NCBI RefSeq assembly: GCF_023028105.1
Contig: NZ_CP095491.1
Coordinates: forward strand, 3,100,001 to 3,164,000
Length of the DNA stretch: 64,000 nucleotides
From: Halosolutus gelatinilyticus
GTDB lineage: Archaea; Halobacteriota; Halobacteria; Halobacteriales; Natrialbaceae
Direction of reading: 5' to 3'
Shown: positions 30,257-33,764 of the stretch, piece after piece
Layout of the letters: every line of letters starts with the position of its first letter
Numbering within the stretch: the stretch's first letter is position 1
The notes under the pieces: generated by a model
Database searches by the model: none
Told to the model about the DNA's origin: nothing
Seen by the model: only the letters and a program-made list of their open reading frames with translations
Translations under genes and position numbers: made by a program

Positions 30257-32872
30257 CTATCGGGGGCTCGACTCGTTTCTCGCGCAGTGCGAGTCCGAAC
30301 AGCACCGCTCTTCGTCCCGTTTTTCGAACCGATCGGGAACCTCCGGGTCCACGTGCGCGAGCCGCATCGCGTTGCCCGTCACGCCGAGGCTCATCCCCAT
30401 ATCGCCGATGACGACCGCGTGGATCACCGTCACGATACCGAGCGGGGCCCCAGCAGCGAGGACGGCCTTGACCGCCAGGCTCGACCAGATGTTCTGGCGG
30501 ATGACGTCGTTCGCCGTCCGCGAGAGGTCATAGAGGTAGGGTAGTCTGGTGAGGTCGTCGCCCATGAGCGCGACGTCGGCCGTCTCCAGCGCGGTATCGG
30601 TCCCGGCAGCACCCATCGCGATGCCGACCGAGGCGCTCGCGAGCGCCGGCGCGTCGTTGATGCCGTCGCCGACCATCGCGACGCGACCCTCCCGATCGTC
30701 GCCATCCCGTCCGTCGTCGGTCCGGCGCTCCAGCCGATCGATCCACTCGAGCTTCTCGTCGGGGAGCAGTTCGGCGTGGTACTCATCGATGCCGACGTCG
30801 GCCGCGATCGCGCGGGCGGTTCCCTCGTTGTCGCCGGTGAGCATCACCACGCGAACGCCCTGGGCCTGCAGCCGCGAGACGGCCCACTTCGCGTCGGGGC
30901 GGACTCGGTCGGCGACGCCGACGACGCCGATCGGCCCGTCCTCGGTGCCGACGATCACGACGGTCTTGCCCTCGGCCTCGAGATCGGGGACGACCTCCGA
31001 CAGAACGTCCAGACAGCCCTCGCGATCGCACTGCGGCCGATCTTGCCCGTCGTACCCGAGTTCGGCGAGCGACGTACCGCCGTCGGTGGTCGCGTGCGCG
31101 TGTTCGAGATCCGCGAGCCCGTCGAACAGGTCCGGCTTGCCGACGTAGTGGGTTCGCCCGTCGACGTCGGCGCGAACGCCCTTGCCCGTCAGCGCCTCGA
31201 AGTTCGAGACGTCGAACTCGGCGACAGCGACGCCCCGCTTCTCGGCGTAGCCGACGATCGCCTGCCCGATCGGGTGTTCGCTGCGACGTTCGACGGCGCT
31301 CGCCCGGCGGAGGACGGTCTCCTCGTCGGCGCCCTCGAGCGGGATGACGTCGGTCACCGAGAGGTCGCCCTCGGTGAGCGTTCCCGTCTTGTCCACGGCG
31401 AGGACGTTGCTCTCGGCGATCGCCTCGAGGTGGCGACCGCCCTTGATCAGGACGCCGTTACGGGCGGCGCTCGTGATCCCCGAGACGACGCTGACCGGCG
31501 TCGAGATGACGAACGCACAGGGGCAGGCGATGACGAGGAGGGTCAAGCCGACGATGAACCAGTAGTTCCAGGACGCCCCCAGCAGGGGCGGCACGACGGC
31601 GAAACCCACGGCGAGCGCGACCACGATCGGCGTGTACACGTTCGCGAACCGATCGACGAACTGCTCGCGCTCGGTCTTCTCGCGTTCGGCGTCCTCGACC
31701 ATGCGGACGATCCGGGCGATCGTCGAGTCGTCGGCCTCGCTCTCGACCTCGACTTCGAGGTAGCCCGACTCGGGGATCGTCCCGGCGTACACCTCGTCGC
31801 CGACCGCCTTGTCGGCGGGGACGCTCTCGCCGGTGATCGGCGACTGGTCGATCGCGCTTTCGCCTTCCAGAACCGTGCCGTCCGCGGGAATTTTGTCGCC
31901 GGGTCGAACGACGACGACGTCGCCGCGCTCGAGCGTCTCGACGGGCACCGTCTCCTCGGTTCCGTCGTCGCGCTTGACGGTCGCCGTGTCCGGCGAGAGG
32001 TCCATCAACTCCCGCAGCGAGTCGCGCGCGCGGTCCATCGAGAATCGCTCGAGCAACTCGGCGACGCTGAACAGCACCGCGAGCGTCGCGCCCTCGAAGG
32101 GGTGGTGAGCCGCCACGCTCGCGACGATGCCGGCGCTCATCAGGAAGTCGATGTCGAGACTCCGATTTCGCGCCGAGTAGTAGCCGTTTCGCAGGATCGG
32201 CGCCCCGGCGATCGCCGCGGCCGCGACGAACAGTATCGCGGAGAGATCGTAGGTGCGACCGATCGCGGCGAACAGCGTCGGATCGGCGGCCGGAAGCAGG
32301 TATTCGAGCACCAGGCCGACGCTCAGGAGGACGGCGCCGACGCCGGTCGAGACGGCGCGGCGGCTCTTCCAGACCGGGTCCTGATCGCCAATCGAGTCGC
32401 GCTCGTCGCTCACCGGCGTCGCGTCGTAGCCGGCGGAGCCGATCGCGTCGACGACCGCTTCGGGGCCGGTCTCCTCGGAGACGGTGACGGTGACGCGGCC
32501 AGACGTCGGGCGAGCCTCGATCTCGCGGACGCCGTCGACGCTCGCGAGGGCGTTCTCGACCTTATTCGCACAGGAGGCGCAGTCCATCTCCGGAACCGAA
32601 ACCGTCAGTTCCGATTCCGCGTCGTCGATCGCGTAGCCGGCCGCGCGGACCCGATCGCGGATCTCGGCCTCGGAGGCGCGGGTCGGGTCGTACGCGACGA
32701 CGAGGCGGCCGCTGGTCACCTGCGCGTCGATGTCGTCGATCCCGTCGAGTCGCTCGACGCTGTTCGTCACCTTGCCGGCGCAGGAGGGACAGTCCATCTC
32801 CGGGACGCGCAACTCGAGTGTCCGGGCCGCGTCGGGCGGCGTATCGGGAGATGAGGGAGTAGACGCAGTCAT
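30257..32872 (-). CDS. Heavy-metal P1B-type ATPase, Zn2+/Cd2+ subgroup
   Basis: An 871-residue exporter. Two N-terminal HMA domains carry MDCPSC (Cys28/Cys31) and MDCASC (Cys98/Cys101). The membrane metal site is CPC (450-452) in CPCAFVISTP, phosphorylation Asp494 is in DKTGTLTEGD, and the hinge is MVGDGINDAPAL. CPC followed by SxP plus Lys and the Asp in VIGDMGMSL near the end point to the P1B-2 (Zn/Cd/Pb) group rather than Cu. A Cys/His-rich insert lies near residues 585-620 (HAHATTDGG, PQCDREGC). It is preceded by a palindromic operator and a Cys-rich regulator gene. Confidence 0.92.
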   Translation of the reverse strand: MTASTPSSPDTPPDAARTLELRVPEMDCPSCAGKVTNSVERLDGIDDIDAQVTSGRLVVAYDPTRASEAEIRDRVRAAGYAIDDAESELTVSVPEMDCASCANKVENALASVDGVREIEARPTSGRVTVTVSEETGPEAVVDAIGSAGYDATPVSDERDSIGDQDPVWKSRRAVSTGVGAVLLSVGLVLEYLLPAADPTLFAAIGRTYDLSAILFVAAAAIAGAPILRNGYYSARNRSLDIDFLMSAGIVASVAAHHPFEGATLAVLFSVAELLERFSMDRARDSLRELMDLSPDTATVKRDDGTEETVPVETLERGDVVVVRPGDKIPADGTVLEGESAIDQSPITGESVPADKAVGDEVYAGTIPESGYLEVEVESEADDSTIARIVRMVEDAEREKTEREQFVDRFANVYTPIVVALAVGFAVVPPLLGASWNYWFIVGLTLLVIACPCAFVISTPVSVVSGITSAARNGVLIKGGRHLEAIAESNVLAVDKTGTLTEGDLSVTDVIPLEGADEETVLRRASAVERRSEHPIGQAIVGYAEKRGVAVAEFDVSNFEALTGKGVRADVDGRTHYVGKPDLFDGLADLEHAHATTDGGTSLAELGYDGQDRPQCDREGCLDVLSEVVPDLEAEGKTVVIVGTEDGPIGVVGVADRVRPDAKWAVSRLQAQGVRVVMLTGDNEGTARAIAADVGIDEYHAELLPDEKLEWIDRLERRTDDGRDGDDREGRVAMVGDGINDAPALASASVGIAMGAAGTDTALETADVALMGDDLTRLPYLYDLSRTANDVIRQNIWSSLAVKAVLAAGAPLGIVTVIHAVVIGDMGMSLGVTGNAMRLAHVDPEVPDRFEKRDEERCCSDSHCARNESSPR

Positions 32873-32907
32873 TACGAACCAGTAGTAGCCCGGGACCCAT
32901 ACGGATT

Positions 32908-32925
32908 ATTTGGCGCACGCCAAAT
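32908..32925. promoter_or_regulatory. Palindromic operator ATTTGGC-N4-GCCAAAT over the ATPase promoter
   Basis: A perfect 7-bp inverted repeat with spacer GCAC. On the minus strand GCCAAATAATCC continues from the right arm, so the palindrome overlaps the BRE/TATA-like element (AAATAATC) that precedes the ATPase ATG by about 35 nt. The position is ideal for repression or metal-controlled activation. The likely binder is the regulator encoded immediately upstream, but that is inference. Confidence 0.6.
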
Positions 32926-33002: not shown

Positions 33003-33764
33003 TCAGATCCCCGCGGTTTCGGAGGGAGCGGTCAGCGTTTCGATCGATGCGTCCTCCGCGACGAACGTCGACGCGAGGCTGGCCTCGGCCCGCCGGAGCC
33101 GGTAGGAGAGGGTCGATCGCGGCACGTCGAGTTCGTCGGCGAGGTCGGAGAGTTCGATCCGGCGCGGCGTCTCGTAGTAGCCGCGTTCGACGGCCGCTCG
33201 CAGCGCCTCGCGCTGTTCGTCCGGTAACTCTCCCTCGGACTCCGGACGGTTTCGATCGGGATCGAGTTCCGTCACCCGCAGCATCTCGATGCCCGTACAC
33301 TCGCCGACTTCCTCGCCGAGGGCGTCGAAGAACTCGTGGATCGGCGCGTCGCTGCCGAGGACGATCCGCCAGCGGTAGCGCCGCCCCTCGCGGTAGGTCT
33401 CGAACAGGAGGCCCTCGCCGAGGTACTCGAGCGCGACGTGGGGAACCGACGTGCAGACGTTCGTCCGCTCCCAGTAGGTGTAGACGACCAGCGTCCCGTT
33501 CGATCGATCGAGCACCTGCACCTCGCAGTCGGCGCCGCAGTCGTCCTTGACGAGACAGTCCGCGAAGTAGTCGGCCGTCTCGTACGCGGCTTCGAGTTCC
33601 GCGAGCGCCTGCTCGGAGCCGGTGGCGTGATCGACCCGCCAGAGGCTGTCGCTCGTGACGTGACACGACAGCGATCGGATCGTCGTGTCCGGGTGGTCCG
33701 CGAGCACGTCGGCGACGGGGTTCGTCCCGGGTTCGTACTCGAGGGCGAAGACGAATTCTCTCAT
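33003..33764 (-). CDS. Bat-type HTH regulator with Cys-rich sensor domain
   Basis: A 253-residue protein. The C-terminus (about residues 190-235) is an HTH_10 domain of the bacterio-opsin activator type: RGYYETPRRIELSDLADELD then PRSTLSYRLRRAEA. The N-terminal domain contains SLSCH (Cys34), DCLVKDDCGADCEV (Cys70, Cys76, Cys80) and NVCTS (Cys104), a cluster suited to binding a thiophilic metal. It lies 130 bp upstream of the P-type ATPase on the same strand, so it probably regulates that exporter in response to Zn, Cd or a similar ion. Confidence 0.85.
   Translation of the reverse strand: MREFVFALEYEPGTNPVADVLADHPDTTIRSLSCHVTSDSLWRVDHATGSEQALAELEAAYETADYFADCLVKDDCGADCEVQVLDRSNGTLVVYTYWERTNVCTSVPHVALEYLGEGLLFETYREGRRYRWRIVLGSDAPIHEFFDALGEEVGECTGIEMLRVTELDPDRNRPESEGELPDEQREALRAAVERGYYETPRRIELSDLADELDVPRSTLSYRLRRAEASLASTFVAEDASIETLTAPSETAGI

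Follow-up and report, generated by a model that had tools for sequence, protein, structure and literature searches.

Zinc and cadmium efflux in bacteria is controlled by ZntR, CadC and SmtB, dedicated switches for their exporters that have MerR or ArsR folds and act at bacterial promoters. Haloarchaea encode numerous HTH_10 proteins, few of which have been characterised. NarO of Haloferax volcanii and DmsR of Halobacterium salinarum are short HTH_10 activators, one-component regulators of the bacterio-opsin-activator kind lacking PAS and GAF domains, which control denitrification and DMSO respiration (PMC11218638). The bacterio-opsin activator Bat combines its HTH_10 DNA-binding domain with a longer REC-PAS-GAF-BAT-HTH_10 architecture (PMC5847659). 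At gas-vesicle promoters, the leucine-zipper-like GvpE activates from a two-part upstream site (UAS) beside the BRE, and the close UAS-BRE distance is essential (PMC4390858). Metal control in haloarchaea has been described for copper, in which the Lrp-TRASH protein VNG1179C of Halobacterium activates the P1B ATPase YvgX on Cu (PMC3551603, PMC3600143), and for manganese, which involves SirR (PMC3600143).

The locus described here lies in a 64,000-nucleotide stretch of Halosolutus gelatinilyticus DNA (the whole stretch analysed, hereafter the window) and comprises a P1B ATPase gene, a palindrome in its promoter and an HTH_10 regulator gene upstream. Its regulator resembles NarO and DmsR as these are described, and shares HTH_10 with Bat. 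The palindrome has the two-part, BRE-adjacent character of the GvpE site, which differs in sequence and involves no metal; the regulator would, like VNG1179C, act on a haloarchaeal P1B ATPase, but belongs to another protein family, and YvgX is a Cu pump. Regulator and palindrome very probably constitute a hitherto undescribed switch by which pump expression is turned on, most likely under metal excess. The literature searched contains no named haloarchaeal regulator of zinc or cadmium export and no description of this regulator-operator pair, its site or metal control by HTH_10 proteins; the single paper in which HVO_2928 turned up records an antisense transcript for that gene (PMC8303175).

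The ATPase and its upstream regulator

CPC, a lysine in TM7 and DMG in TM8 are marks of P1B-2 pumps. The 871-residue P1B-2-type (Zn/Cd/Pb) ATPase encoded at 30257..32872 (minus strand) has two CxxC HMA domains, CPC in TM6, QNIWSSLAVK in TM7 and GDMGMS, with its DxG, in TM8, and orthologous ATPases retain CPC, the TM7 lysine and the TM8 DMG. Its top NCBIfam matches are Zn/Cd/Hg/Pb-type P1B exporters, with high scores that fall below the cut-offs of the E. coli-type equivalogs. The protein next to the palindrome is best interpreted as a Zn/Cd/Pb-type (P1B-2) efflux pump, its metal selectivity being a prediction from sequence.

Upstream of the ATPase, on the same strand, lies the gene for a 253-residue regulator (33003..33764, minus strand) with an HVO_2928_N sensor domain (PF24281; residues 3-168, 33261..33758; E 5e-65, 218.5 bits against a gathering score of 27) followed by an HTH_10 domain (PF04967; residues 182-231, 33072..33221; E 5e-18, 65 bits against a gathering score of 23.1). 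Both domains score above the Pfam gathering score and are the only ones over cut-off. The initial annotation had called this regulator Bat-type, which is accurate for HTH_10 and not for the rest of Bat, as no REC-PAS-GAF-BAT precedes HTH_10; a Pfam match to the Lrp HTH or to TRASH, as in the copper regulator, was likewise absent. It had also been described as Cys-rich, with five cysteines; the richness is borne out, and the number is six (positions 34, 70, 76, 80, 104 and 156), of which three are universal, while C34, C80 and C156 vary among regulators. An alignment of 177 regulators shows C70, C76, C104 and H109 (33438..33557, minus strand) without variation and H35 (33660-33662, minus strand) almost without it, making these residues candidate metal ligands; three cysteines with one or two histidines would suit Zn or Cd.

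The sensor domain has a predicted alpha/beta fold with a ferredoxin-like order of elements, according to an AlphaFold model of modest quality (pLDDT 76). Its nearest fold in the PDB is Ta1207 of Thermoplasma (Z 10.7, 137 residues, rmsd 3.1), a likeness that is uninformative on function, and the HTH part of the model resembles sigma region 4. A sequence search of the PDB with the regulator gave no useful match.

Palindrome and promoter geometry

The 18-bp palindrome ATTTGGCGCACGCCAAAT is located exactly at 32908-32925; on the ATPase strand its first base precedes the start codon of the ATPase gene (at 32872) by 53 bp. It had been read as a 7-4-7 palindrome; its position and exactness hold, and its arms are one pair longer, giving an 8-2-8 arrangement, ATTTGGCG-CA-CGCCAAAT (32908..32925, no strand assigned), whose conservation is fixed in position. 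It is the sole match in the window with up to three mismatches allowed, and its conserved 14-bp core TTGGCGYRCGCCAA (32910-32923) has a single exact occurrence in a whole-genome search. Elsewhere in the same genome, TTGGCGGCCGCCAA (L002:1501-1518; G000:C1:338206) differs from the palindrome only in the central two bases and precedes an open reading frame that may encode an HTH protein.

Dinucleotide shuffling of the 130-bp intergenic region produced palindromes with arms of at least 8 in 3.5% of versions and with arms of at least 7 in 12%, and 35 equally long palindromes are present in the window compared with 16-33 in shuffles. Significance of the palindrome by itself was rejected, about 3% of shuffled intergenic regions being equally good. 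The palindrome alone is weak evidence, and the case for an operator depends on its conservation across loci.

Haloarchaeal genes mostly give leaderless transcripts, from promoters that combine BRE and TATA with a WW -10 element (PMC4983044), a pattern that the elements of the ATPase promoter fit. These comprise a BRE-like ATAA (32906..32909, minus strand; -37..-34 from the start codon), directly downstream of the 14-mer and conserved in the CG class of operators described below; a TATA-like GTAT (32899..32902, minus strand; -30..-27), which the aligned sites keep as [GT]TAT at offsets 8-11 beyond the 14-mer; and, near -12, a TA (32883..32884, minus strand), conserved at offset 26-27 and possibly the WW -10 element. 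The 14-mer occupies -51..-38, directly upstream of the BRE. An operator over both TATA and BRE had been proposed; the alignment places the palindrome 6 bp upstream of the TATA-like GTAT, leaving TATA free, whereas the BRE region is abutted and slightly overlapped.

The start codon of the window ATPase follows the 14-mer by 37 nt, and in an alignment of sites this distance is 37-38 nt in about 125 of 140 unique sites, a count that takes GTG at 34 as gtgATG. Near-identical spacing occurs at the unrelated promoters of four paralogs (L216, L218, L219 and L220). At the ATPase and at paralog promoters alike, the site thus has the placement of a UAS, immediately ahead of the BRE and at a constant distance, and such a position upstream of BRE and TATA is read here as activator geometry. 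Some promoters have two tandem operator copies about 16-23 bp apart (L154, L153 and L223:3229-3258), and one ATPase (L099:311-499, G140) is preceded by six identical tandem 35-bp units of operator plus TATA element, an apparent promoter amplification.

Conservation across Halobacteriales

The loci surveyed were fifty named ones from Natrialbaceae, Haladaptatus and Halocatena, together with about 130 from 243 Halobacteriales genomes. In nearly all of them a regulator homologue lies upstream of a P1B ATPase; 164 loci (145 distinct) in Halobacteriales have an HVO_2928_N/HTH_10 regulator in this position. Among the 145 distinct loci in which both genes could be seen, 129 have strict TTGG-N6-CCAA ahead of the ATPase, and the other 16 have one- or two-base variants (such as TTGCTGCACAGCAA in L174 and TCGGTACGCACCAA in L044 and L121) or a decayed copy (L087); L132 and L143 also carry the operator. 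Where other genes, spanning roughly 1-5 kb, separate regulator and ATPase (L009, L013, L020, L045, L118, L133 and L221), the palindrome remains at the ATPase.

ATPase orthologs with 57-64% identity to that of the window occur in 33 genomes without a close regulator homologue, and among the 30 examined none has the palindrome or a near-match. These regulator-less ATPases are as similar to the window ATPase as most regulator-linked ones outside Natrialbaceae, and at least as close to it as many regulator-linked ones; no consistent neighbour that could be a common replacement regulator was seen beside them. The difference between 129/145 and 0/30 (Fisher p ~2e-22) is descriptive, as related genomes are non-independent. 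Comparison shows a position-fixed putative operator that depends on the presence of the regulator, and the predicted regulator-site pairing is well supported. The palindrome, the ATPase promoter and the adjacent Cys-rich HTH_10 regulator had been proposed as a unit, to be abandoned if the palindrome were missing at orthologous loci; the strict and near-variant sites establish it as a conserved one.

Operator classes and their helix signatures

The outer bases TTGG/CCAA of the operator are constant, and the inner bases form three classes, usually altered on both sides: AA..TT (TTGGAATATTCCAA), the commonest; CG..CG, in Natrialbaceae and a few others; and TR..YA, in Haladaptatus and relatives. 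Each class is accompanied by its own signature in the HTH_10 domain, which in the window regulator is PRSTLSYR (residues 215-222, 33099..33122, minus strand), matched to its CG-class operator. PRSTLSYR pairs with CG operators in 64/64 cases, PRSTL[TAN]YR with AA operators in 68/68 and PGST[LF][SA]YR (PG) with TR operators in 11/11, a match without exception in 143 regulators. On a tree of the sensor domain the three classes form three groups, requiring a minimum of two switches, and the helix-operator match was rejected as independent evidence because only these two evolutionary switches underlie it. The comparison shows predicted specificity classes that match the recognition helix perfectly, but over few events. 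In both G203 and G206, a single CG site and a single AA site occur in the same genome, each next to a regulator homologue, which indicates that operator class tracks the regulator and not the genome.

Number of sites and paralogs

A search of 243 genomes located the commonest operator, TTGGAATATTCCAA, in 67, mostly as a single copy and nearly always beside a regulator homologue, the reversed control giving 0. A composite of operator and TATA element, TTGGCGNNCGCCAAAYAANNNGTAW, occurs once in each of 35 of the 61 Natrialbaceae genomes (control 0), and this near single-site distribution suggests that the regulator has one main target. The stretches examined around the other P-type ATPases of the H. 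gelatinilyticus genome (CopA-like CPC, CPH type and a plasmid copy) contain no TTGG-N6-CCAA. In the same genome, a CPH-type, His-rich P-type ATPase has another HTH_10 regulator (HVO_0513_N) immediately upstream (L232:2609-5790); TTGG-N6-CCAA was not found there.

Autoregulation in the ATPase-linked clade was considered and rejected, the operator being present upstream of the regulator gene in 0/152 loci. Paralogs L219 and L220, 37% identical, do carry it before their own start, and also before a SUI1-family gene (L219:1983, L219:2853, L220:3171 and L220:4014). Paralogs of about 48% identity, with helix PRSTLSYR, diverge from a COX1-type gene bearing TTGGCGCACGCCAA (L216:2613-2626 and L218:3125-3138), whose start codon is 37 nt downstream. 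The same type of regulator precedes a different P1B ATPase, with APC and HEGSELL motifs, in L091, L096 and L101, at which the operator is TTAGAATATTCCAA. A 43%-identical paralog in the H. gelatinilyticus genome (L181; G000:C1:1450614-1451117) has the helix PLSTLQYR and lies beside a thioredoxin-reductase-like gene and DoxX; TTGG-N6-CCAA was not found at this locus.

Proposed mode of action and alternatives

The regulator is probably a dedicated metal-responsive activator of the Zn/Cd efflux pump that acts through the palindrome, as judged from sequence comparison. The HVO_2928_N sensor and HTH_10 domain would form a dedicated one-component switch for the downstream ATPase gene, a role in which it would parallel ZntR, CadC and SmtB. 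A regulator dimer would use both of its HTH_10 domains to bind TTGG-N6-CCAA. In each half-site the two inner bases, CG at this locus, would be read by the recognition helix, PRSTLSYR in this regulator. From -51..-38, where it would adjoin the BRE of a leaderless promoter whose TATA box is poor, the bound dimer could recruit TFB/TBP and bring about transcription of the pump gene, the signal most likely being excess Zn(II), Cd(II) or Pb(II) on C70, C76, C104 and H109, perhaps with H35. Direct binding, dimerisation, activation in preference to repression, a metal signal and the identity of the metal are all inferred. Activation is preferred because haloarchaeal activators are known to act from BRE-adjacent sites and because NarO and DmsR have been described as activators.

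ArsR-kind regulators of efflux pumps are repressors, and a regulator dimer on the palindrome, which abuts and slightly overlaps the BRE region, could similarly block access of TFB to the BRE until metal releases it, in the manner of ArsR/SmtB or CadC. Such a metal-releasable repressor is unlikely given the near-invariant spacing to TATA across many families, the poor TATA boxes, the same spacing at the unrelated targets of paralogs and the record of characterised HTH_10 proteins as activators. A chance or structural palindrome, or one belonging to another regulator with incidental synteny, is highly improbable: chance would give an equally good palindrome in about 3% of such intergenic regions, but this reading would leave the contrast of 129/145 with 0/30, the half-site changes on both sides and the match of helix to operator without explanation.

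The nature of the signal bears on a further alternative. Paralogs that have a thioredoxin-reductase-like protein, DoxX, rhodanese or COX1 as neighbour, and no metal pump, retain the Cys/His set as well, which means that the regulator could instead respond to redox or sulfur. The regulator would then be a sensor of thiol redox, sulfur or oxidant-released metal that induces the pump within a stress response, without sensing metal directly, a role compatible with the family-wide conservation of the cysteines and with the action of the related NarO in oxygen control (PMC11218638). This is less probable still than repression, as nearly the sole recognisable target in the ATPase-linked clade is a metal ATPase, including one of a second class, and genomes with the operator usually have a single copy of it.

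Implications for haloarchaeal metal homeostasis

Beyond the single locus, we lean slightly towards viewing HVO_2928_N/HTH_10 proteins as a new haloarchaeal family of metal-sensing activators. Its members would share a modular TTGG-NN..NN-CCAA code at -51..-38 of a leaderless promoter, with two or three helix residues setting the inner bases, and would have been redeployed to Zn/Cd pumps, a second class of P1B ATPase, a COX1 gene and some of their own genes. If the proposed activation is correct, it would name a regulator of zinc and cadmium export for a large part of Halobacteriales and give HTH_10 proteins a predicted DNA code that is testable residue by residue. It would also provide a nearly single-target promoter of fixed geometry for studies of archaeal activation and for metal-inducible expression in haloarchaea.
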